A stretch of DNA of 64,000 bases from assembly GCA_000702025.1 (NCBI GenBank), contig JNKJ01000019.1:1-64000 (forward strand), read 5' to 3'. Positions 8,881 through 63,668 of the stretch are shown one piece after another. The position numbers and the translations under genes were made by a program. A model generated the notes under the pieces. It was not told the DNA's origin. It saw nothing but the letters and a program-made list of their open reading frames with translations, and did not search any database. This DNA is from Blautia schinkii DSM 10518 (GTDB lineage Bacteria; Bacillota; Clostridia; Lachnospirales; Lachnospiraceae). Numbering within the stretch: the stretch's first letter is position 1; the number at the start of each line of letters is the position of its first letter.

Positions 8881-9170
8881 AAGGGGGTCCCCTGGAATGT
8901 TGTTGTACGGCTATGAGAAGTGAATGGGGCGCGGAGGCAGTGGCTGGGGGGATGCTGATGCTCGCTTCCCTTCAACTAAATGCCAACTGCGACTAAGCCG
9001 CTCACGAAGAGCGTTCGCGCCTAAGTCTTAGTAGGCATTGGATTTTCAGGCGCGCTTCCGCAAATCAGCCTCCCCCCAGCCACTGCCTCCGCGCCCCATT
9101 CACTTCTCATAGCCTGCCTCCACATTTCCTCCCCTTCCTGGTGCTTGTTCTTTTCACCGGAAGGTTTCAA
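8881..9170 (+). repeat. Structured repeat, copy A (left half of pair A/B)
   Basis: One of six copies of an unrecognised ~300-bp family. Its inverted arms, 8909-8952 and 9071-9114, are a perfect 44-base-pair match to each other and unlike the arms of other copies. The core (8953-9070) has the family's conserved single-strand motifs CGCTTCCCTTCAACTAA and TGGATTTTCAGGCGCGCTT. Inside lie helix P2 (AATGCC 8979-8984 with GGCATT 9034-9039), a conserved internal loop, helix P3 (from GACTAAG at 8991) and hairpin P4 (ACG/CGT around AAGAG). The outer left end carries GGGGGTCCCC. The right flank carries the weaker shared end with CACCGGAAGG. No open frame is evident. Confidence 0.85.
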
Positions 9171-9194: not shown

Positions 9195-9510
9195 CCCTGA
9201 ACAAAACCTCCAGTGAAAGCGCCGCTCTCATTGAAGGGGACGGGAACGTAGTGGAAGGTGGGCGGAAGGAAATCCGGTGTGTGGCCGTGGGCGCTGGCGC
9301 TGTCTTGTCAGGCATTTTGCGGAAGCGCGCCTGAAAATCCAGTTCTTACGGAGACTTAAGCGCGAAAGCTCTTCTTGAGCGCTTTAGTCGCAGTTAGAAC
9401 TTAGTTGAAGGGAAGCGAGCAATGCCTGACAAGACAACGCCAGCGCCCACGACCACACACCGGATTTCCTTCCGCCCACCGTTTCACAAACTTCCCAGGG
9501 GACACCCCTT
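9195..9510 (-). repeat. Structured repeat, copy B (right half of pair A/B)
   Basis: A minus-oriented copy of the same family, in inverted orientation to copy A and about 100 bases away. The arms 9257-9316 and 9421-9480 match at 58 of 60 positions and share little with copy A's arms. In core orientation P2 is GTTCT/AGAAC (plus-strand 9396-9400 and 9342-9346). P4 is AAG/CTT (9366-9368 and 9374-9376). Both differ from copy A while keeping pairing. Its outer end, CCAGGGGACACCCC, runs up to the comF stop codon at 9510. Confidence 0.85.
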
Positions 9511-10214
9511 CAAACTCCTATACATACCGTCAGGAAGTAAACTTTCTCCGCTCCCGCCTCGAGCAGGCACTCCGCCATTGCGTCCACTGTACTCCCCGTA
9601 GTATACACATCGTCTATGACCAGTATGCGCTTGCACCGCACCTGTCCCTGTACCTGAAAGGCTTCTTTCAGATTGCGGCGCCGCTCAGCAGCATTGAGTT
9701 TTTTCTGGGACTTGGTGTTTTTTGTCTTGATTATAAGGTTCAGGTCAACTGGAATGCCTGTATAACCGGAAATGCGTTGTGCGAGATATGCAGCCTGGTT
9801 AAATCCGCGCATGCGCTGCTTTTTTCTGTGCAGGGGGACGGGTATGATGAGCTGTGGGTTCCAGCGGGTGAGCTCGTGACGGGCAAACACACACATGGCT
9901 TTTGCGTAAAAATCGCCGTACTCCCGGCAGCCGTAGTATTTGTATTTTATGAGGGAAGCCTTCATTTTATCATTATAGAGGAAAATGCCCCGTCCCTGGG
10001 TAAAGCTTCTGGGATGAGAGGCACATTCCCGGCAGTATTCCTCGTCTCTGCCTACCGGCCTGCCGCATTTGAAACAGTGAGGGCCGGATATGGGCTTAAC
10101 TGTGGCTTCGCATTCGGGACAGATGAGCCGGCTCTGGTCTTTTAGAACTTTGTGGCAGAGCGGGCAGCATCTGGGGTAAATCATGTTTAAAATCGAATTC
10201 CATATTTTTTTCAA
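9510..10214 (-). CDS. comF: ComF-family phosphoribosyltransferase-like protein
   Basis: A 234-residue ComF/GntX-type protein, linked in other bacteria to DNA uptake and recombination. An N-terminal zinc-ribbon-like Cys region has CCPLC (16-20), CPEC (32-35), CFKC (47-50) and CREC (61-64). The C-terminal phosphoribosyltransferase fold carries DDVYTTGST at about 201-209. The start is TTG with AAGGA a few bases before it. It lies 73 bases downstream of recD2, and its stop codon touches repeat copy B. ComEA- and ComEC-like genes are also in the window, so a DNA-uptake set may be present. Confidence 0.92.
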   Translation of the reverse strand: MKKIWNSILNMIYPRCCPLCHKVLKDQSRLICPECEATVKPISGPHCFKCGRPVGRDEEYCRECASHPRSFTQGRGIFLYNDKMKASLIKYKYYGCREYGDFYAKAMCVFARHELTRWNPQLIIPVPLHRKKQRMRGFNQAAYLAQRISGYTGIPVDLNLIIKTKNTKSQKKLNAAERRRNLKEAFQVQGQVRCKRILVIDDVYTTGSTVDAMAECLLEAGAEKVYFLTVCIGV

Positions 10215-16765: not shown

Positions 16766-17095
16766 AAGGGGGCCCGGGAAGGTGTCGAACGGTAAGGGTG
16801 GAGGACCGGGAGGCCGGGGCAGGTATGAGAGCGGACAGGCTGATGCTCGCTTGCCTTCAACTAATTGCCAACTGCGACTAAGCCGCTCACGAAGAGCGTT
16901 CGCGGCTAAGTCTCCGTAGGCAATGGATTTTCAGGCGCGCTTCCGCAAAATCAGCCTGTCCGCTCTCATACCTGCCCCGGCCTCCCGGACCTCCACCCTC
17001 ACCTACCTCTACGTTCCCACCCCTTCGAAACGGTGGTCGTTTTAACCGGATATTTTTTCAATGCGGAAAGAAAAGCTACTGCTAGTTATCATCTT
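16766..17095 (+). repeat. Structured repeat, copy C (left half of pair C/D)
   Basis: Same family as copy A, plus orientation. The arms 16791-16843 and 16951-17003 match at 51 of 53 positions. P2 is ATTGCC/GGCAAT (16864-16869 and 16919-16924). P3 is GACTAAGCCGC with GCGGCTAAGTC, and P4 is ACG/CGT around AAGAG (16889-16899). The outer end GGGGGCCCGGG starts at 16768. The other outer end (CTACGTTCCCACCCC, then CCGGAT and a T run) continues to about 17095. It lies between the uvrA promoter and copy D, and no gene overlaps it. Together copies C and D fill the gene-free stretch 16716-17474. Confidence 0.85.
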
Positions 17096-17154: not shown

Positions 17155-17475
17155 CCAGGCAAGCTATTTTTTCGCATTCAATAATCTTCCTGTGAAAAGC
17201 ACAGCCACTTTACAGGGGACGAAAACGTTGACGTAGGTGAGCAGAAGGGAATCCGGTGCGGAGGGGCTGGCGCTGGCCTTGTCAGGCATTTTGCGGAAGC
17301 GCGCCTGAAAATCCAGCGGTTACGGAGACTTAGCCGCGAGAGCTCTTCTCGAGCGGCTTAGTCGCAGTTACCGATTAGTTGAAGGGAAGCGAGCATGCCT
17401 GACAAGACAGCGCCAGCCCCTCCGCACCGGATTCCCTTCTGTTCACCGTCCACAACCTTTCCAGGGGCCCCCTGT
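17155..17475 (-). repeat. Structured repeat, copy D (right half of pair C/D)
   Basis: Minus-oriented copy, inverted relative to copy C. The arms 17236-17288 and 17396-17447 pair almost fully, with one mismatch and one small bulge. In core orientation P2 is CGGT/ACCG (plus-strand 17370-17373 and 17317-17320). P4 is GAG/CTC (17340-17342 and 17348-17350). Both helices therefore carry replacements not seen in copy C, yet still pair. The outer end CCAGGGGCCCCCTG reaches the hemW stop codon at 17475. The gap to copy C is only about 60-200 bases, depending on where the outer ends are set, and holds no gene. Confidence 0.85.
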
Positions 17476-22910: not shown

Positions 22911-22939
22911 CCGGGTGCTGTCACGGTGACAGCACCCGG
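22911..22939 (-). terminator. Hairpin overlapping the spoIIP stop codon
   Basis: A perfect stem (CCGGGTGCTGTCAC and its complement, 22911-22939) spans the stop codon of spoIIP. The following minus-strand sequence is AT-rich but has no long T run. It probably terminates the spoIIP transcript and shields the module downstream. Confidence 0.65.
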
Positions 22940-24468
22940 TTGAGAATATCAGCAAATGGCTCCATGGCATTTTTTACTTCCTGCACTGTATTTGTCTGGG
23001 CTCCAGCCTCCAAAAGCAGCGCCTTTGGCCTCAGGTGCAGGTTATAGCGCAGGCCGGCAAGATAAATACCACGATAAAAATCAGGATAATATTGCGCAGC
23101 CTGGTACTCAAGCTGAAAGGAAAAGGCAAGGTTATCCTGTACATAAGGATTGGGAAGGTACTCCACGGGTCCGTGGCTCACGGTATAACTTAATCCGTTG
23201 TAAAACATAATCTGTGCCGTATCCTTACCGTTGATTTCTGTGACTAAATGGCGGTCCTCCGGTACTCCATCCCGGTGCAGGTCAATGATCACTTCGATCG
23301 TGGGATTTTCCGCTAAAACCTGTTCAATGTACTCCCTTGCATAGTCGTAAGCCTGACTTCTGTCTATTTCTCCGTCTATGATATCAAAGGTTTCTGTAAC
23401 ATGAATCACATTATATCCGTATGTTTCGGTCAGAAGCTCCGTGAGGTAATTTCCCACGCCCACCACCGTGTCCTCCGGCTCGCCTTCTCTGGAGTCGATA
23501 AAAGTCTCCTGGGAATGGCTGTGGTAAATAAGAATCTGCGGGGCCTGGGCATCCTGCTTGATTGTAAGGTCTTCGCCGAGAAAACTGGCGGCATTGAGCT
23601 GGTCCGCGGTCACGGCTGTCGTCGGGTCAACAATAAAAAACTGGCCAAGCAGATAATCATAATTCGCCAGACTCTCCGGAGACAGGTCCACTACAGGATG
23701 AGGCTTGATGGCCGCTGCAGCAGCCTTTATATTATCCGTGATGTCATCTTCAACGGGTTTGTCCTTTTTTTTGCCGTCCTTCGTTTTATCCTTGGATTTC
23801 TCATTTCCTGATACATCACTCTTATTTCTCTTCTCCGCTGACGCATCCGTGTCGGTTTTTGAACCCTGCGATGATGTACCATCTTTAGATTCCTGTCCAT
23901 TTGATGAACCATCTTTGGATTCCTGTCCAGCTGACGTTCTATCTTTGGACTCCAGACCTTCTGATGCTCCGTCTTTAGGCTCCTGTCCAGCTGATGTTCC
24001 ATCTTCGGACTCCAGACCTTCTGACGCTCCATCTTTAGACTTCTGTCCATCTGACGTCCCATCTTCGGACTCCAGACCTACTGATGTTTCATCTTTCGAT
24101 GCATCCTTCTTCTGGGATGCTTCGTTCTCGGTTGCGTCCTTGACTTCCTGGCCTCCGGAAGCAGCTCCGGCGGTACGGTCTGTCACACTGTGTTCTGTTC
24201 CGGACCGGGCCAGAAGCTTTTCATCTTTTATTCCGTTTTCTTCCTGTATCTTGCGGCCGAGATACTGGGCATTTCCGGCTATGATCTTCTCGTAGGTTTC
24301 CGGGTCTTCGCTCTGAGGGATGCTGGTTGCCTTTTTTTCCAGAAAGCAATAGAGCGGCACCTGCCTGTACACATTGCCGCGCAGGAAAAAAGGCCCCGGC
24401 ATCACAGCCAGAACAGCAAAAAAACACAGGCTTAACAACACACAGAATGCCTTCTGGAATTTCGTCAC
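22921..24468 (-). CDS. spoIIP: Stage II sporulation protein P with repeat linker
   Basis: The 515-residue SpoIIP is a membrane-anchored amidase/endopeptidase that, with SpoIID and SpoIIM, removes septal peptidoglycan for engulfment. The start is GTG with AGGTGA upstream. A transmembrane helix covers about 8-28 and the catalytic domain about 300-510, with metal-binding motifs IYHSHSQETF and IIDLHRDGV. Between them residues ~131-200 form about seven 10-residue repeats (types SKDGASEGLE and SEDGTSAGQE), followed by a Lys-rich stretch. The linker is unusually long. gpr lies upstream, as in other spore formers. Confidence 0.94.
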   Translation of the reverse strand: MTKFQKAFCVLLSLCFFAVLAVMPGPFFLRGNVYRQVPLYCFLEKKATSIPQSEDPETYEKIIAGNAQYLGRKIQEENGIKDEKLLARSGTEHSVTDRTAGAASGGQEVKDATENEASQKKDASKDETSVGLESEDGTSDGQKSKDGASEGLESEDGTSAGQEPKDGASEGLESKDRTSAGQESKDGSSNGQESKDGTSSQGSKTDTDASAEKRNKSDVSGNEKSKDKTKDGKKKDKPVEDDITDNIKAAAAAIKPHPVVDLSPESLANYDYLLGQFFIVDPTTAVTADQLNAASFLGEDLTIKQDAQAPQILIYHSHSQETFIDSREGEPEDTVVGVGNYLTELLTETYGYNVIHVTETFDIIDGEIDRSQAYDYAREYIEQVLAENPTIEVIIDLHRDGVPEDRHLVTEINGKDTAQIMFYNGLSYTVSHGPVEYLPNPYVQDNLAFSFQLEYQAAQYYPDFYRGIYLAGLRYNLHLRPKALLLEAGAQTNTVQEVKNAMEPFADILNRVLSP

Positions 24469-26100: not shown

Positions 26101-26137
26101 GAAAGACAGTCACAACCGTCAGTGACTGTCTTTTTGT
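26101..26137 (+). terminator. Shared terminator between rpsT and holA
   Basis: AAAGACAGTCA/TGACTGTCTTT closes a ten-base loop and is followed by TTTTTG on the plus strand. On the minus strand the 5' A run also becomes a T run. The hairpin can therefore end both the rpsT and the converging holA transcripts. Confidence 0.9.
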
Positions 26138-27117
26138 TTTGCGGAACTATATTTCACGATTAAAAGCTCCACGCTCAGCACATCCCCGAGGCGGCCTGTT
26201 TTTACAGCCTCCTCTGCGTCTACGAAATCCGCCACTGCTGTCTCCAGCTCCTCAACGGAGTAGGAACGGGCGCAGGCTGCGATATTACGCACCACAAAGG
26301 ACGGCACGCCCAGCCGGGAGGCTATGTCATTCTGTGAAGCCCCCTCCTGGGAAAGTTTTTTTGTGAGAAGAAGCTGTCGGAACTGCTTTGCCAAAAGGAA
26401 AAGAATTCTCATGGGAGGCTCTTTCAGAGTCAAAAGATCGTAATACAGATCCAGGGCTCTTTTCTGGTTTTTCTCCGTAACTGCGCGGACCATGTCGAAA
26501 ATTTTGTTTGTGGTCTGGGTGGTGCACACCTCTTCTATATCCTCTGCAGTTACGACGTCCCGGTCGCCTGTGTAGGTGATTAATTTTTCCAGTTCCATGC
26601 GCAGGTTGCCCATGTCTGTGCCTGTTTTCGTGAGTAGAAGCTCCATGTCACGCTGAGTGATTTTTTTTCCTTCTTTCCCTAAAATGCCGGCGGCCCAGCG
26701 CATGAGAGTTTTTTCATCCTGCTTTGTGAATTCAGCAATGCGGCCGCTGTTTTTGACAGCCTTGTACATGCGGCTTCGTTTATCAACCTCGGTTTCTGCA
26801 AAAATCATGCATATATATTCGGGCAGTTCTTTCATGTAATCTGCCAGCTCATCGCATTTATTCTTGAAAAATCCTGTATCCTCGAGCAAGATCACTCTGC
26901 GGTCCGCGAAAAAGGGCATGGTCTCGCAAAGGTCGATCAGTGCTTTTATGTCGATTCCTTTTCCTTCGTAATGGCCAAAGTTCATGGTGTCGCCGTCAGG
27001 GTTGAGGGCTTTGAGAAGGTTGTGTTTGTACTGCTGTTTCAGATAGGCTTCCTCTCCGTAGAGCAGGTAGGCTTGTTTGAAATTTCCGGTCTTGATGTCT
27101 TCCTGTATACTCTTCAA
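26119..27117 (-). CDS. holA: DNA polymerase III delta subunit
   Basis: The 332-residue clamp-loader subunit that opens the beta sliding clamp. It has the AAA+-like fold of HolA without a working Walker A: the opening LLYGEEAYLKQQ is typical, followed by ETMPFFADRRVILLED and the C-terminal helical collar (LTLKEPPMRILFLLAKQFRQ). The start is TTG with AGGAG about ten bases upstream. It converges on rpsT and shares its terminator. In related genomes holA follows comEC directly; here two repeats and a two-gene cassette intervene. Confidence 0.94.
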   Translation of the reverse strand: MKSIQEDIKTGNFKQAYLLYGEEAYLKQQYKHNLLKALNPDGDTMNFGHYEGKGIDIKALIDLCETMPFFADRRVILLEDTGFFKNKCDELADYMKELPEYICMIFAETEVDKRSRMYKAVKNSGRIAEFTKQDEKTLMRWAAGILGKEGKKITQRDMELLLTKTGTDMGNLRMELEKLITYTGDRDVVTAEDIEEVCTTQTTNKIFDMVRAVTEKNQKRALDLYYDLLTLKEPPMRILFLLAKQFRQLLLTKKLSQEGASQNDIASRLGVPSFVVRNIAACARSYSVEELETAVADFVDAEEAVKTGRLGDVLSVELLIVKYSSAKQKDSH

Positions 27118-27226: not shown

Positions 27227-27530
27227 AAGGGGGCCCCGGAAAGTGGTTGAACGGCGAGGAGGAGCCTGGGGGCCGGGGGAGATGTGAACCGCGTCAGGCT
27301 GATGCTCGCTTCCCTTCAACTAAATGGTAACTGCGACTAAGCCGCTCACGAAGAGCGTTCGCGGCCAAGTCTCCGTAACCATTGGATTTTCAGGCGCGCT
27401 TCCGCAAATCAGCCTGACGCGGTTCACATCTCCCCCGGCCCCCAGACTCCACCTCACCTTCCTCTACGTTTTCACCCCTGTATAGAGGTTGTGTTTTTCT
27501 CCGGGAGTTTTTTCGAGATGGGGACTTCGT
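27227..27530 (+). repeat. Structured repeat, copy E (left half of pair E/F)
   Basis: Same family, plus orientation. The arms 27253-27302 and 27409-27458 match at 47 of 50 positions. P2 is ATGGT/ACCAT (27324-27328 and 27378-27382), a different pair from other copies. P3 and P4 (ACG/CGT) resemble copies A and C. The outer end TAAGGGGGCCCCGG begins at 27227. The other end includes CTACGTTTTCACCCC, CTCCGGGAG and a T run. It lies about 110 bases upstream of the holA start. Its partner copy F lies 1 kb away on the far side of a small gene cassette. Confidence 0.85.
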
Positions 27531-27624
27531 GTATGGCAACCTTTTCGTTTAGTGGGTTTGTATTTCCACATATACGAAATATAGTGTAGTAAAGAAAAAT
27601 CAGATTCAAAAATGTCCGCCACAC

Positions 27625-27653
27625 TTTACATTTCTGTTTTCTTATGCTATGAT
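27625..27653 (+). promoter_or_regulatory. Promoter of the DUF6442-like/XRE cassette
   Basis: TTTACA (27625-27630), a 17-base spacer and TATGAT (27648-27653). It is followed by an AT-rich leader of about 140 bases, without a gene, before the ribosome-binding site at 27781. Confidence 0.75.
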
Positions 27654-27794
27654 ATACATATAGTTAGATTTCAGCTTAAATTAACTGACTTTTTTTGTTG
27701 GCAATATGATTGTTTTAATGTAGCACAAGAAATCTCTAAATCTTGCATAGACTGGCTTAGTTGGTTTAAAAAATTATTTAAGGAGGAACTTAAT

Positions 27795-28106
27795 ATGGAC
27801 AAAAAAGATATTCTGGCTTATAACAAAGAGCATCCATCTGGAGATGAGAGAGAAGCATTTATAGAATCACGACTTGCCCGTAAAGCAAATATAGGTTTTT
27901 TGCTGACATTATTGCTGATTTTTGGTTTTAAAGTAATAAAGGGCTATGCATATGAAGATTTAGTTGCTATATTCTGGGGATACCTGGGCGTAGTGTATTA
28001 TTACAATTATCAATATTTCCCAAGTAAAAAAACATTCTATTCAGCAATCATCACTATAATCTTATTTATACTCTTTTTAACAATGTACTTTATCAAAACG
28101 TGGTGA
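27795..28106 (+). CDS. Small membrane protein, DUF6442-like
   Basis: A 103-residue protein. A charged N-terminus (MDKKDILAYNKEHPSGDERE, 1-20) is followed by a soluble helix and three membrane segments (about 33-48, 55-70 and 78-98). The N-terminal pattern resembles small membrane proteins that are commonly paired with an XRE regulator in Firmicutes (DUF6442 type); I am fairly, not fully, sure of that family. I chose the ATG at 27795 because AGGAGG lies nine bases upstream. The gene is clearly AT-richer than its neighbours, and the XRE gene follows after four bases. Function unknown. Confidence 0.78.
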   Translation: MDKKDILAYNKEHPSGDEREAFIESRLARKANIGFLLTLLLIFGFKVIKGYAYEDLVAIFWGYLGVVYYYNYQYFPSKKTFYSAIITIILFILFLTMYFIKTW

Positions 28107-28110
28107 GAAC

Positions 28111-28329
28111 ATGAAAGAGCTTAAGTTATACAATAATTTAAAAGCATATAGAAAAAAGAAAAATATTTCTCAAGAAAAGCTTGCTGAACTAATCGGTGTA
28201 ACACGCCAGACAATATCAAGTATAGAAAATCTACAATATTGCCCTAGTGCTAAGTTAGCATTACTTATTGTATATGCTCTTGACGAACAATTTGAGAATG
28301 TATTTTACTTAGACGTACCCAATGACTAA
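28111..28329 (+). CDS. Small XRE-family regulator
   Basis: A 72-residue, single-domain helix-turn-helix protein (about 8-60; SQEKLAELIGVTRQTISSIE), of the short Cro-like kind that usually controls its own operon. Four bases separate it from the membrane-protein gene upstream, so the two are one transcription unit. Base composition is AT-rich like its partner. The pair sits between repeat copies E and F and interrupts the conserved comEC-holA order, so it looks acquired. The 398-base stretch downstream to the comEC stop contains repeat copy F and no gene. Confidence 0.85.
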   Translation: MKELKLYNNLKAYRKKKNISQEKLAELIGVTRQTISSIENLQYCPSAKLALLIVYALDEQFENVFYLDVPND

Positions 28330-28449
28330 GACTGATTTACAATAAAATACAAGTTTGCGATAAGTTATCCTCTACATATTACAATAACTGTCCCAAACAG
28401 ACGAGCCACATCTGTCGGCATCACTTAACCCTTAAGAACAAATCTCTAC

Positions 28450-28727
28450 GCAAGACACATGCCTTCCGGTTAAGGAACAGCCTCCACGGGTGAGGTACGG
28501 AAACGTAGCGGCAGGTGAGGAGAAGGGAAATCGGTGCAGGGGCTTGTCAGGCAGATTTGCGTAAGCGCGCCTGAAAATCCAGTGCCTACGGAGACTTAGG
28601 CGTGAACGCTCTTCGTGAACGTCTTAGTCGCAGTTGGCAATTAGTTGAAGGGAAGCGTGCATCTGCCTGACAAACCCTGCACCGATTTCCCTTCTCCTCA
28701 CCGTTCAACCTCTTTCCGGGGAGCCTC
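28450..28727 (-). repeat. Structured repeat, copy F (right half of pair E/F)
   Basis: Minus-oriented copy, inverted relative to E. The arms 28514-28556 and 28661-28702 pair over about 41 positions, with one mismatch and one bulge; they are the shortest arms of the family. In core orientation P2 is TGCC/GGCA (plus-strand 28636-28639 and 28583-28586) and P4 is ACG/CGT. One core position departs from the other copies (GCGCTTAC instead of GCGCTTCC). The outer end CTTTCCGGGGAGCCTC runs to the comEC stop codon at 28728. Confidence 0.85.
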
Positions 28728-31079
28728 TCACCCGAGCGTCAAGAATCTCTCCACCCACATGTGCTCCCCATCGCTCACCACGCTGACCGCGCCGCTTTTC
28801 ATCGTATATTCCACCCGGCTGCCAATGTCCTCAAGTCTTTTCACCGCATCCGGTGACGGGTGTCCGTATGTATTTGTCGCAGAACAGGAAATCACAGAAA
28901 TCTCCGGCCTAATCTTATTTAAAAAGTCTTCAAACGATGAATTTTTAGACCCATGATGCCCCACCTTCAGAAAATCCACATCCTCCAATTTATCCAACAG
29001 TGCTTTCTCGCTCTCCTCCCCGACATCTCCCGTAAACAGGCCCTTAAAGCGGTCATATTCCACCAGTACCACCATACCATCTTCATTCACGTCAGAACCC
29101 GTCCGGCCCTCCTCCGGAGCGAGCAGCGTAAGCCTTACAGCACCAGAACGCAATGCATCTCCGGCATTCGCAGACTTTACTCTCACTCCCGCTTTTTTTG
29201 CAAGAGAAGCAAGCTCCTGCCAGGCCTCCGGTTGTTCAATCCACCCGGGGAGCAGTAGATATCCGACGCGGATGGTGGTAAGGCCGTCTGCCATAAAGCC
29301 CAGAAGCTCTTTCACCCCGCTTATATGGTCATCGTCCGTATGGGAAATCAGAATAGCATCCAAAAAGGAAATCCCTTGGCTTTTCAGGTAGGGAAGAAGC
29401 TGGTATTGTGCGAGAGCAGATTTATTGCTGCTGCCTCCATCAATAAGGAAATGCCCGCCCTGGGGCGTCTCCAGAACAATCCCATCCCCCTGCCCCACGT
29501 CAAGACAGGTAATCTTTAACTCTCCGTGAGAATGATAACCAAGAAGTAATACTCCCGCCATAGTCGTAAGAATAACTATTTCACGGCACAAAGCGCAGGA
29601 TTCCCCCTCTTTTTTCCCCCGTACTCTATGTGTCCTATGTGCCATCTGGACTCTGCCTGCCTCATGCGCTATCCGCGCTCCACTCGCAACATTCGCCATC
29701 CGCACCTCACCTGCAACATTCGCCGCCCGCACTCCACCTGCCTTATGCGCCATCCAAACCCTATCTGCGAGCCACAAGCCCAGCCCAAGCAGCACATAAT
29801 ACACTGCCGCCTGCCACAGCGTCGGCTGTCCGCCAATCCAAGTGCAGAAGGGAAGCTTTGCCGCTAAGATGCAGAGGTGTTCATAGAGGAACAACAGTCC
29901 TCGCCCGGGCAGCGCGCATGCAATTCCTGCCCCAGTCCAGGCGCAGCCCAGCAGTACTGCAGCCACACCGCTCGCGAGCACCACACCTACCGTGGGGAGT
30001 ACCACAAGATTGAGGAATACCCCTGCCACCGACACTTCCCCATAAAACCACAACATCACCGGAAGTGTAGTTATCTGCACTGAAAGTGAACCAAGCAAAG
30101 CCTTTATAAGCTTCTTTTCTGTTCCCATCAGCTTGATCAAAAGCGGCGACACCACCCCGATTCCCAGCACTGCCCCAAAGGAAAGCAGAAAGCTGCTGCT
30201 ATAAAGATACGCCGGACAATCTGCAAGTATCAGTATTGCGGCGATTGCCAGGGCAGTCATCATGTCGTAAATCCTTCCAAGTATTTTTGCTCCCACAGAA
30301 AGCAGAAACATACACACAGCCCGCATAGTCGATACGCTTGCTCCCGTCATCATGCCGTATTGAAGCATGACTGCCAGTGCAAGCAGGCCTGCTGGCCAGA
30401 TGCCAAGTCCCAGTTTTTTTAATAGCTGATAAAGCCCCATGCCAAGGACGCTGATGTGCAGCCCGGAAATGGCAAGCATATGAATGATCCCGGCCATCTG
30501 GTAGCGCATTTTTGTCTCGATATCAAGACTGCTTTTATCACCGAGCACAATAGCCGAAAACACAGGGGCGTCCGGTCCTGCTGCCCGCGAAAGTACATCC
30601 GCAAAACGATTCTGCAAGTCCAGCAGAAACTGCCCATACCGCGAATAGTTTTGTGATTGTTTCAATATTTCTGCTTTTTTCAAAAAATAGAAAATATTGC
30701 TGCATGCATAATACTGCCTGCTGTCAAACTCACCGGGATTACGCGGTCCTTCCACCTCCTCCAGTTTTCCGGACAGCAAAAGCACGGCTCCGGCCGGAAC
30801 CTCTTGTTTTTTCTTTAGAAATACTCTCACATTTTTAAGGGAAACTTTTTCAGATTTGTAAATCAGATAGGTTTCTTTCAGATAGATAGATTGGGAAAAT
30901 TCTGTGTCTGCGCACCGCTCCACCTCCCCGCAGATGGTGGCGTCCGGATGCTCACTGACCCATGTCTGAAGCGGCACTGGCAATGGATTCCCCCGTATCA
31001 GGGGAGCCCCCAGCCAATCCGCTGCACACATGACAGTCATCAGGAGCAGACACAACACACACAATGGGCGTCTTGCCAT
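28728..31079 (-). CDS. comEC: ComEC/Rec2 DNA-uptake channel
   Basis: A 783-residue polytopic protein that passes single-stranded DNA across the membrane in competence. An N-terminal OB-like region (DUF4131) is followed by the multi-helix competence domain (about 190-460) and a C-terminal metallo-beta-lactamase domain with SHTDDDHISG and KVGHHGSKNSS. The ATG at 31079 follows AAAGGAG; longer starts would run into the upstream gene. Between channel and lactamase domains (29641-29755) lie four 9-residue tandem repeats (GGVRAANVA type), rich in Arg/Ala and unusual for the family. It is co-directional with a ComEA-like gene four genes upstream. Confidence 0.93.
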   Translation of the reverse strand: MARRPLCVLCLLLMTVMCAADWLGAPLIRGNPLPVPLQTWVSEHPDATICGEVERCADTEFSQSIYLKETYLIYKSEKVSLKNVRVFLKKKQEVPAGAVLLLSGKLEEVEGPRNPGEFDSRQYYACSNIFYFLKKAEILKQSQNYSRYGQFLLDLQNRFADVLSRAAGPDAPVFSAIVLGDKSSLDIETKMRYQMAGIIHMLAISGLHISVLGMGLYQLLKKLGLGIWPAGLLALAVMLQYGMMTGASVSTMRAVCMFLLSVGAKILGRIYDMMTALAIAAILILADCPAYLYSSSFLLSFGAVLGIGVVSPLLIKLMGTEKKLIKALLGSLSVQITTLPVMLWFYGEVSVAGVFLNLVVLPTVGVVLASGVAAVLLGCAWTGAGIACALPGRGLLFLYEHLCILAAKLPFCTWIGGQPTLWQAAVYYVLLGLGLWLADRVWMAHKAGGVRAANVAGEVRMANVASGARIAHEAGRVQMAHRTHRVRGKKEGESCALCREIVILTTMAGVLLLGYHSHGELKITCLDVGQGDGIVLETPQGGHFLIDGGSSNKSALAQYQLLPYLKSQGISFLDAILISHTDDDHISGVKELLGFMADGLTTIRVGYLLLPGWIEQPEAWQELASLAKKAGVRVKSANAGDALRSGAVRLTLLAPEEGRTGSDVNEDGMVVLVEYDRFKGLFTGDVGEESEKALLDKLEDVDFLKVGHHGSKNSSFEDFLNKIRPEISVISCSATNTYGHPSPDAVKRLEDIGSRVEYTMKSGAVSVVSDGEHMWVERFLTLG

Positions 31080-31114
31080 AGCGCTCCTTTCCCGCGGAAG
31101 AAAATGGGCAGTTA

Positions 31115-32053
31115 CTACTCCCCTTCCTCCGTTACAATTAATTTCTGATTCCATTCATAAAAATTATAAAGCGGCATATTGTCGCCAAAAGTCTGTTCCG
31201 GGCTGCCCTCCACGGAAATCTGCACCTTACCCGCTCCTGTGACAGACAGCAGAGTGTTGACCACAGAATAAATAGATACCTGCTCATCAATATCCAGAGC
31301 GTAATCCTTAAACACATGGTCAAATTTCACATAGCAGGTATTATCCGAGGTGGTCACTTCCAATATTCCGGTGTTTTCAGGGATGACAGGATAGCGGCCT
31401 TTCACCATAGGGCCCTTGGCAAGCTGCTCCAGCGCCACCCGGGCCTTTGGAAGGCTGCGCTTATAATAGACACTGCGCTTTTCCTCCAGCAGTTTTTCCC
31501 CGGTCCTGTCCGTGAAATACAGGGTAAAGGTATCGTAACGGTAGGTGTCCTTGTCCGAGCCTAAAAGCTCTACAAAGGTAGAGTTCGTCATCTCACCCAC
31601 AGGCTGTCCCTTGGAGTCCGTAAGCTCGGCACCATTGATTGTAAAACTCACCGATGCGATGCCCGGCACCTGCAGAAATGTCTTGACCACACCTGCGCGC
31701 ACCAGAATCTCCCTTGCCCGGCTCATCTCCTCATACTTGCTGTTTGCGTCAATGATCAGCTTCTCACCCTCGATTTTATAATTCATGACAACATCCTTGG
31801 GAAGAAGATTGATCGCTTCGCCCTCCAACGCCTTATTATTAAGGCGCTGCATAAGGTCCTGAAGCATAAATTCCGCAGAATCCTCCTGGGGCTTATATTT
31901 TTCTCTTTTCAGCTTTGTCTCGTCCTTATCGATATAATAAAAATAATAAGAACTGCCGTCCTCAGCTTTCTCCTCCTGCACTTCCACCTGACATGCCCCA
32001 AAAAACAGGCAGGTCATCACAAAGAGCAGAATCATGCTAACTATTTTTTTCAC
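31115..32053 (-). CDS. GerMN-domain lipoprotein
   Basis: A 312-residue lipoprotein with lipobox FFGAC near residue 18 and two GerMN-like domains (about 70-160 and 185-290; for example YTLYFTDRTGEKL and GTGILEV-like strands). GerMN domains occur in Bacillus GerM and actinobacterial LpqB and are thought to bind wall-related ligands. I chose the GTG at 32053 because AGGAGG lies six bases upstream and the signal peptide then starts at residue 1. It follows the sensor kinase by ten bases, an arrangement recalling mtrA-mtrB-lpqB, so it may modulate that kinase. comEC begins 35 bases downstream. Confidence 0.85.
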   Translation of the reverse strand: MKKIVSMILLFVMTCLFFGACQVEVQEEKAEDGSSYYFYYIDKDETKLKREKYKPQEDSAEFMLQDLMQRLNNKALEGEAINLLPKDVVMNYKIEGEKLIIDANSKYEEMSRAREILVRAGVVKTFLQVPGIASVSFTINGAELTDSKGQPVGEMTNSTFVELLGSDKDTYRYDTFTLYFTDRTGEKLLEEKRSVYYKRSLPKARVALEQLAKGPMVKGRYPVIPENTGILEVTTSDNTCYVKFDHVFKDYALDIDEQVSIYSVVNTLLSVTGAGKVQISVEGSPEQTFGDNMPLYNFYEWNQKLIVTEEGE

Positions 32054-53493: not shown

Positions 53494-54390
53494 TTATTTC
53501 ATTGCAGTGACCACGATTTCCTCAGAAAGCTCCTCATTAAAAAATAGAAACAGCAGCGTCACCGGTATCAGGCAAAGCACCCCGCACACATACTGCAGGG
53601 AATAATTATATCCGCTCATACTTGCAAGGAACACAGACAGCGGAAACTGCTGCACACTATCCAGGAACACCATGGGCTGCTCCACCATATTCCAGTTATC
53701 CACAAACACAAGCACCACAAGACACGCCACCCCCGGCTTGGCTGCGGGAACCAACACACTGACAAGGGTTCTGAGCGTACCCGCTCCGTCCAGTCTCGCC
53801 GCCTCCAGAAGCTCCATGGGAATCCCCTGAAACACCAGTGTCATCAAAAAGGTAGAAAACGGCGAAAACACAGCCGGCAGAATCAACGCCCAATAGCTCC
53901 CAAGAAGGCCCAGCCTGCTGAGGATCAGATAGTTCGGAACCAAGGCTGCCTGAACCGGGAGAATCATAAACAATACCATAAGCGCAAACCACACCTGCTT
54001 TCCGCGGAAACGGTATTTGGCAAACGCCATCCCCGCAAGGCATCCCACTGCCAATTGCCCCGCCGCAATCACAGAACACAGCCCAATACTTTTCCAGAAC
54101 TTCAGCAGATAATTAGGTGTCGCCAAAAACACCTTATAATACGCCATTAGAGAAAAATGCCCGGCTGACACGAAGTTCTGTCCCGCGAGCTGTTCTCCCA
54201 ACTCCGTCACGAAAAAGGAATTTACAAATGTAAATAAAACAGGAAATAATACTACAATTCCCAGAATAATCATTAGCAGCGGCTTCGCAACACTACCTGA
54301 CTTTACAGCACCATCTGACTTCACAGTACCACCTGGCTCCACAGCGCCACCTGACTTCACAGTACCACCCGGCTTCACTCTTTTATTCAT
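53494..54390 (-). CDS. Carbohydrate ABC importer permease (MalG-like)
   Basis: A 298-residue permease with six membrane helices and the ATPase-docking EAA loop (ELLEAARLDGAGTLRTLVSV). The first ~30 residues are unusual: 6-residue tandem repeats (GGTVKS, GGAVEP, DGAVKS; 18-bp DNA units at about 54295-54380) that no MalG needs. It overlaps the MalF-like gene. Substrate is unknown; family members move oligosaccharides or polyols. No ATPase gene is in this cluster, so a shared MsmX-type ATPase is likely. Confidence 0.9.
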   Translation of the reverse strand: MNKRVKPGGTVKSGGAVEPGGTVKSDGAVKSGSVAKPLLMIILGIVVLFPVLFTFVNSFFVTELGEQLAGQNFVSAGHFSLMAYYKVFLATPNYLLKFWKSIGLCSVIAAGQLAVGCLAGMAFAKYRFRGKQVWFALMVLFMILPVQAALVPNYLILSRLGLLGSYWALILPAVFSPFSTFLMTLVFQGIPMELLEAARLDGAGTLRTLVSVLVPAAKPGVACLVVLVFVDNWNMVEQPMVFLDSVQQFPLSVFLASMSGYNYSLQYVCGVLCLIPVTLLFLFFNEELSEEIVVTAMK

Positions 54391-56535: not shown

Positions 56536-56668
56536 CTCCTATTACTTCTATAAACTTCCTGTTACTACCACAACTTCTCGTTACTACCACGACTTCTTGT
56601 TACTACCACGACTTTCCGATACTTCTACGACTACTCGATACTCCTACGACTTTCCATTACTTCTACCA
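56536..56668. repeat. 19-bp tandem repeat, seven units
   Basis: Seven consecutive 19-base units (for example CTTCTCGTTACTACCACGA at 56574, repeated with two changes at 56593). They lie between an ABC-2 permease stop and the binding-protein start. Unit length is not a multiple of three and no frame uses it. Units at the ends are more diverged than those in the middle. Confidence 0.9.
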
Positions 56669-63287: not shown

Positions 63288-63565
63288 GCCTGCACAAATC
63301 TGCTGAAAACCAGATTCCGTGCAATGGCCCTCTGATAACTCTTATATCTTCTGCACATTTTAGCATGAAATCATAATTTTGCCTAGTGAAATAATAACCA
63401 CAAACTTTTTTTATAAGCCTTAATTTTGTTCTCTTGTGTATTTTATCCAAAAAAATGCTCTAAATTTTAGGACTTTGGATATTTTAAATTTCGCCAAATC
63501 AATTGACAGAAAAAACCATATCTTTTATAATAAATGATGTAATATAAATATTGCGTAAATGCAGC

Positions 63566-63630
63566 AACTTATATAAGTCCAAAATCGGTTGGACGTTTCT
63601 ACCAACTACCGTAATAGTTGTCTATAAGTT
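63566..63630 (+). ncRNA. Guanine-type purine riboswitch
   Basis: Three-way junction of the purine class: P1 AACTTATA (63566-63573) with TATAAGTT (63623-63630), P2 GTCCAA/TTGGAC, junction TTTCTACC, and P3 CAACTA/TAGTTG with loop CCGTAA. The junction base before P1 that reads the ligand is C (in TCTAT), as in guanine rather than adenine sensors. Directly downstream lies a guanine deaminase, in full agreement. Confidence 0.92.
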
Positions 63631-63668
63631 CTATTCAGGGACTCGTGGGCAGATTGGGTAGTTTTTTT
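63631..63668 (+). terminator. Riboswitch expression platform with T run
   Basis: CTATTC (63631-63636) can pair with GGGTAG (63655-63660, two G-U pairs), followed by a run of Ts. Alternatively AACTACC (63604-63610), part of riboswitch P3, can pair with GGTAGTT (63656-63662). The second pairing is only open without ligand, which would make guanine switch the gene on. Which forms is not settled. Confidence 0.55.

Follow-up and report, generated by a model that had tools for sequence, protein, structure and literature searches.

The inverted hairpin copies E and F, which separate comEC from holA in the window (the whole 64,000-nt stretch of Blautia schinkii DSM 10518 DNA that was analyzed), are on balance probably a convergent dimer of a MITE-like hairpin that is maintained at the DNA level, forming a transposase-less composite that was most likely inserted together with its cargo of two genes. 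The best-supported description is that E/F works like a composite MITE, a likeness that does not assign it to a named element family. This reading is supported by the convergent orientation of 34 out of 34 close pairs in the part of the genome that was read, by gene-carrying dimers elsewhere in this genome, and by the sites free of both repeats and cargo in the relatives read. The data connect a large long-palindrome repeat family of Lachnospiraceae with how small accessory genes move, and if its dimers move as units, any gene located between two copies would potentially be mobile without a transposase of its own.

Architecture of the E/F pair

Repeat and profile searches of the window located six hairpin copies, arranged as the three convergent pairs A/B, C/D, and E/F. 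The E/F pair, its immediate neighbors and the other two pairs are composed of the following features.

27227-27479, plus strand: hairpin copy E (core 27296-27415; outer end AAGGGGG..., inner end ...CACCCCT; repeat and profile search and fold, ends placed by eye)
27480-27530, plus strand: inner tail of E, resembling the tails of other copies (by eye)
27540-28440, strand not applicable: AT-rich enclosed segment, 31.3% G+C
27795-28106, plus strand: DUF6442 gene, 103 aa, putative membrane protein (AAGGAGG upstream; Pfam match)
28111-28329, plus strand: XRE/HTH_3 regulator gene, 72 aa (start 4 bp past the DUF6442 stop; Pfam match)
28440-28487, minus strand: inner tail of F (by eye)
28488-28727, minus strand: hairpin copy F (core 28549-28668; repeat and profile search and fold, ends placed by eye)
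26119-27117, minus strand: holA, downstream neighbor (PF06144, PF21694; 109 bp from its start to E)
28728-31154, minus strand: comEC, upstream neighbor (PF03772; stop codon directly adjoining F)
8881-9136, plus strand: hairpin copy A (core 8953-9071; profile search)
9234-9511, minus strand: hairpin copy B (core 9315-9422; profile search)
16766-17025, plus strand: hairpin copy C (core 16837-16957; profile search)
17213-17473, minus strand: hairpin copy D (core 17289-17396; profile search)

With ends placed by eye, the distance from hairpin end to hairpin end is approximately 97 nt for A/B and 187 nt for C/D versus 1008 nt for E/F, in agreement with the two kinds of pair spacing described in the initial annotation. 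The same annotation had proposed that E/F encloses a DUF6442-like membrane protein and an XRE regulator in an AT-rich cassette between comEC and holA. A family search of the enclosed open reading frames (ORFs) bore out the two family assignments, with scores well above the cut-off for both DUF6442 (71.8 bits, cut-off 25) and HTH_3 (54.9 bits, cut-off 23); the G+C content of the segment is 31.3% versus 47.9% for the window, and the Pfam-confirmed genes holA and comEC flank E/F on a common strand. Of the promoter proposed for the cassette, the motif itself is present (best match TTTACA-17-TATGAT, 27625-27653), but promoter-type matches number five versus 4.0 expected from shuffles, which makes this the weaker part of the description.

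Elsewhere in the window, seven in-register copies of a short repeat at 30-bp spacing (23842-24126) are found inside a 515-aa ORF (22921-24468, minus strand) that we take to be SpoIIP-like; tandem repeats of 18 and 19 bp are located at 54283-54372 and 56554-56667, and a purine riboswitch (54.7 bits) at 63549-63644.

Structure, number and orientation of the hairpins

Each copy is a near-perfect hairpin of roughly 240-280 nt. Two complementary arms, the first of approximately 50 nt, flank a conserved core that measures 104-120 nt; the outer end is of the AAGGGGG...GTTGAACGG type and the inner end of the ...TACGTTTTCACCCCTT type, with a short tail common to the copies behind the inner end. The predicted folds of E (-156.1 kcal/mol, z -13.7) and F (-139.2 kcal/mol, z -10.9) were matched in stability by 0 of 200 shuffles in either case.

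The part of the B. schinkii genome that was read comprises 78 stretches (1,149,426 bases of 6.68 Mb), many of which were chosen for a copy detected by the searches, and 52 of these stretches contain at least one copy. After merging four interrupted copies, 95 copies were counted: 34 pairs are close (partners within 1.5 kb), 19 copies are single, and 8 copies lie within 400 nt of the end of a stretch. None of the 34 close pairs is tandem or divergent. Core gaps range from 110 to 575 in 30 pairs and amount to 661, 883, 1003, and 1134 in the other four, E/F being the widest. Left and right copies of the pairs displayed no subfamilies. The complete contig C1 (416,849 bases) carries 9 copies, which extrapolates to approximately 144 per genome, and the first pass of the DNA search returned 171-172 candidates. 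Contigs C1, C2, C33, C37, C43, C46, and C52 terminate in or beside a hairpin copy, so that the hairpins probably break the assembly. One single copy (L040:1598-1716) is followed approximately 110 nt further on by an apparent second outer end, and is perhaps a pair that lacks one hairpin.

Four of the 95 copies (L162:18603-18881, L320:2730-3008, L327:3742-4021, and L334:3787-4067) contain an extra stem of approximately 157-160 nt at the same spot near the core tip, with a very conserved tip and a covarying lower stem; these could form a subfamily or preserve a fuller form that is ancestral.

The genomic context was determined for the first 24 pairs, 21 of which had both neighboring ORFs by a simple ORF rule. 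The flanking genes are co-directional for 17 of these, divergent for 4, and convergent for none; the background of gene-pair orientations in the same stretches is 77+54 co-directional, 29 divergent, and 25 convergent. With the outer arm taken as 80 nt, no more than approximately 20 bp separates the outer end of the pair from the upstream stop codon at 10 of the 17 co-directional sites, and at least 63 bp is left ahead of the downstream gene at 16 of them.

Pairing of the hairpin arms at the DNA level

The arm sequences vary between copies and retain their complementarity within a copy: a left arm pairs on average at 51 positions with its own right arm versus 27 with the right arm of another copy. 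The core covaries as well, both sides having changed in at least one sequence for 17 of the 37 predicted pairs. This covariation, the very stable folds of E and F, and the position of 10 of the 17 co-directional dimers just behind a stop codon would all suit structured RNA elements, such as terminators or stabilizers, in which pairing is kept by selection on the transcript and is unrelated to mobility. Selection on RNA would, however, favor G-U over A-C pairs, and the arms do not display such an excess. In the 55 copies of the first set with both arms readable (out of 67 hits), 2989 arm pairs comprised 2810 Watson-Crick, 36 G-U, and 43 A-C pairs, and 100 other mismatches, which argues for maintenance of arm pairing at the DNA level. 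Rfam moreover gave no match to the hairpins in the window at gathering score and only far-below-threshold matches in two further stretches, and dispersed relatives that are 84-98% identical are accompanied by target duplications in the genome designated G359 (see below). An RNA origin of the pairing is for these reasons considered improbable, and an RNA element was ruled out as the main reading on basis of the missing G-U excess and the lack of an Rfam family.

Template switching between arms has been reported to homogenize inverted repeats (passages in PMC8794818 and PMC8604942). The complementarity of the arms would fit such template switching and a need for the hairpin in single-stranded DNA equally well, and the family offers a natural case of how 50-bp hairpin arms stay near-perfectly complementary while their sequence drifts.

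Insertion sites in related genomes

The holA gene is present in 58 relatives within the genus (59 of 64 genomes including B. schinkii), and its locus was read in 29 of these. None of the 29 loci contains a hairpin. In 14 of them comEC is within reach, at a gap of 68-173 bp in 12 and of 718 and 1224 bp in the other two. Eleven larger stretches, with comEC visible in five (gaps of 0.7-4.2 kb) and absent from view in six, contained no hairpin and no XRE match to the cassette gene. The five stretches with such wide gaps and neither hairpin nor XRE match (L296, L297, L299, L301, and L303) illustrate that the junction varies among species.

Across the genus, whole-genome Pfam searches detected 13 DUF6442 matches outside B. 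schinkii, spread over 9 genomes. None of the 13 is near holA: in 8 of the 9 genomes the match and holA are on different contigs or separated by at least 170 kb, and the ninth (G006) yielded no holA. A tblastn search with the DUF6442 protein misses even known relatives, and absence of the cassette at comEC-holA is therefore based on the XRE search and the whole-genome Pfam search. In 8 of the 13 cases an XRE gene lies within approximately 80 bp behind the DUF6442 gene, which identifies the two genes as a conserved operon; in the remainder it is elsewhere or unseen. Hairpins were found neither around the 13 matches, over up to 1.5 kb on each side, nor in nine larger stretches. Relatives with the same two genes between comEC and holA in the absence of the repeats, which the initial annotation had set as its test, were not encountered among the 13 matches, with both loci located in 8 genomes.

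Two further sites were compared, for which we use the putative names glucosidase-FAD protein and Clp-type ATPase. The glucosidase-FAD site carries the gene-containing pair L145, and both neighbors are seen in 5 of the 29 relatives read, the last aligned residues being 130, 131, 131, 231, and 641 bases apart; neither the ORF of this pair nor this hairpin is present in those five. The 641-base gap (L363, in G017) seems, by eye, to contain a different large palindrome, and the site may attract hairpin elements. At the Clp-ATPase site, B. schinkii has a gene-less pair with a 232-nt middle in a gap of 1016 bp. A match was obtained in 56 relatives, and in each of the 29 that were read the gap is 109-342 bp and free of hairpins. 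In G359, the last 113 of the 147 intergenic bases at this site align to one side of the B. schinkii pair (score 122, maximum of 200 shuffles 55), and the first 34 bases past the upstream stop have no counterpart in B. schinkii. The native intergenic sequence thus aligns outside the dimer, which indicates that the pair was inserted as one block together with its middle. The comEC-holA and glucosidase-FAD intergenic regions aligned no better with those of relatives than shuffles did, and the gap lengths alone therefore serve as evidence at these sites. Two MITE-like units around non-native genes and a site free of repeat and cargo in relatives, the hallmarks of a composite MITE, are found for E/F, base-level alignment being obtained only at the gene-less Clp-ATPase site.

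These comparisons also bear on an independent insertion of two hairpins that happened to flank pre-existing genes. The similarity of E to F does not exceed that of randomly chosen copies (core identity 0.876, mean between pairs 0.863), as would be expected of separate arrivals. Nevertheless, 34 convergent pairs out of 34, the alignable native sequence outside the dimer at the Clp-ATPase site, and the failure to find the operon at comEC-holA in the relatives that were read all speak against separate arrivals, and we regard this scenario as very improbable.

Cargo and the middles of the pairs

Recognizable genes are enclosed in 3 of the 34 pairs, and each set is different: DUF6442 and XRE in E/F, a 116-aa pyrophosphatase-like ORF in L145 (PF18823, 20.6 bits, under the cut-off of 26.8), and a NUDIX hydrolase in L316 (38 bits, cut-off 21.1). 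The fourth wide pair (core gap 661) has no ORF of more than 54 aa in its middle. The proposal that E/F is a cargo-carrying form of the element is supported by these three different gene sets, by the relatives read, which have neither repeats nor cassette at comEC-holA, and by the five relatives without repeat or ORF at the L145 site. Its counterpart, that the empty pairs are deletion forms, did not find support: all-against-all comparison of the 27 middles of at least 40 nt yielded a single match of 28 nt. The middles are mostly unrelated, so that a descent of the gene-free pairs by deletion from one cargo-bearing ancestor is not visible.

Some middles do match other places in the genome. An interior segment of 33-98 nt that adjoins the inner tail is 80-97% identical at five places, namely two pair middles (L334 and L039:4432) and three singles (L163:4044, L151:4730, and L039:9498); the E/F middle does not match it. 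This segment is perhaps the remnant of a once-common interior, and it leaves room for a deletion history in which a shared interior was lost from most copies. Most other interior matches derive from the four interrupted copies, in addition to a 38-nt match that links L327 with L335.

The middles are also relevant to the order of events, since the dimer could have been at comEC-holA first and have received the two genes later. Short middles dominate, with a core gap of at most 575 in 30 of the 34 pairs, and the L145 middle opens with approximately 178 nt of a different repeat, which is found elsewhere in the genome at 92-97% identity over approximately 175 nt (three places) and at 99% over 83 nt (a fourth), so that middles do receive insertions. 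Insertion of DNA between the partners of REP dimers is likewise mentioned in the available text of PMC3733652. On the other hand, both inner tails of E/F are present, no junction, duplication or integrase was recognized by eye inside the pair, and the three gene sets, being unrelated, would require as many separate events. A later arrival of the genes is a serious, albeit somewhat unlikely, explanation.

The interpretation that we prefer remains joint insertion of dimer and cargo. Two hairpin units would act as the ends of a composite non-autonomous transposon, with any DNA between them as cargo, and the dimer would move as a single unit by means of a transposase supplied in trans. At E/F the cargo would be the DUF6442-XRE operon, which would have been picked up before the insertion, and the dimer and the enclosed segment would have been inserted together between comEC and holA. 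A broader and rather doubtful extension is that this represents transposase-less gene capture in Lachnospiraceae, by hairpin dimers that are known by their shape and core, take a new segment at nearly every insertion, and prefer sites behind stop codons; if so, small accessory genes would be moved without a dedicated vehicle.

Evidence for mobility

G359 is the genome closest to B. schinkii by HolA (89%), and it contains dispersed elements with the same core that are 84-98% identical over approximately 145-260 bp and have unrelated flanks. Its 13 distinct full single elements are 206-207 bp long, with ends GATGTCGGGGTC..., and their flanks match over 7 bp (identity 0.736 versus a permuted mean of 0.418; 0 of 2000 permutations), which suggests that these single relatives transpose with a 7-bp duplication. 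Ten other duplication lengths between 2 and 12 were not significant for these elements (lowest p 0.09). Short palindromes with the terminal repeat and without the core (L272, L276, and L288 in G359) are deletion derivatives of the 207-bp element.

Points against a composite include that target duplications were not detectable for the 20 B. schinkii dimers tested, that no transposase partner was found, and that recognizable genes are enclosed in only 3 of the 34 pairs. The lack of duplications, the divergence of the copies, and the similarity of E to F, which does not exceed that of random copies, make the family look old and quiet in B. schinkii. A pattern search for a parent insertion sequence with the terminal repeat from G359 yielded complete elements, short palindromes that lack the core, and truncated copies; the ORFs listed at five unpartnered ends, which are truncated copies, included none that was recognized as a transposase. 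Dispersed short copies, terminal inverted repeats and the absence of a transposase gene, by which MITEs are defined, are all found.

Movement as a RAYT-driven REP was considered and rejected as the main reading: the B. schinkii genome has two matches to Y1 (PF01797), both partial, and the surrounding stretches of 20 and 15 kb contain no hairpin (none within at least 7 kb). Phage or plasmid cargo was rejected as the main reading as well, since neither the hairpin nor the DUF6442 protein matched the plasmid and phage collections, and exact core patterns had no match in viral contigs.

Distribution of the family

A covariance model with strict filters matched 18 of 299 genomes of the family, and the DNA search matched 10 of 64 genomes of the genus, B. 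schinkii being included in both counts. The exact core pattern was found in 51 stretches of a named genome collection, labeled Lachnospiraceae, Blautia, Clostridiales, Eubacteriales, and Clostridia MAGs. Five close pairs in other genomes of the family (gaps of 172-820) are all convergent; four of these were picked from hit lists for their paired look, and these lists contained no close pair of another orientation. Copies are single in G014 (14 loci) and in G359 (13 stretches), apart from a same-orientation fragment at the end of a contig (L201, in G359). Wide convergent pairs in G271 and G097 (2.3 and 3.0 kb) surround ordinary-looking chromosomal ORFs and were left out of the count of cargo dimers. 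A description of this long-palindrome repeat family was not found in searches of the open-licence literature aimed at such repeats.

Comparison with known systems

Mobile insertion cassettes such as MIC231 resemble E/F in that transposon ends surround accessory genes without a transposase. These cassettes carry the ends of a known insertion sequence, whereas no parent insertion sequence was found for the E/F family.

REPs and BIMEs are, according to the available text of PMC3733652, high-copy extragenic palindromes that often occur as inverted dimers with variable spacers, heterodimers being common; DNA is inserted between partners, and the CGTC REPs have no dedicated transposase, all of which resembles the E/F family. 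In contrast, REPs measure 20-40 bp and movement of the GTAG class by RAYTs is hypothesized (same text), whereas the E/F hairpins measure 240-280 bp, have a conserved core, and were found without a RAYT alongside. Inspection by eye revealed no GTAG or CGTC tag on the outer ends of the B. schinkii copies; the relatives in G014 and other genomes begin with GGACGC, the complement of which contains CGTC. The words "Firmicutes" and "Clostridi" are absent from the available text of PMC3733652.

A close structural counterpart in arrangement is found in TIME-COMP elements of Pseudomonas, built from two Tn3-derived MITEs. As described in the available part of PMC4133298, these resemble E/F in that genes are enclosed, a transposase is absent, and the cores differ, and in TIME-COMP1 the MITEs are in opposite orientation and the G+C content is below that of its plasmid. 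The TIMEs themselves differ from the hairpins in measuring 262 bp, with 38-bp Tn3-type ends and duplications of 5-6 bp (same source). In the E/F family, the ends of the composite are full hairpins of 240-280 bp, the single relatives are flanked by 7-bp duplications, and the convergent dimer is the common form.
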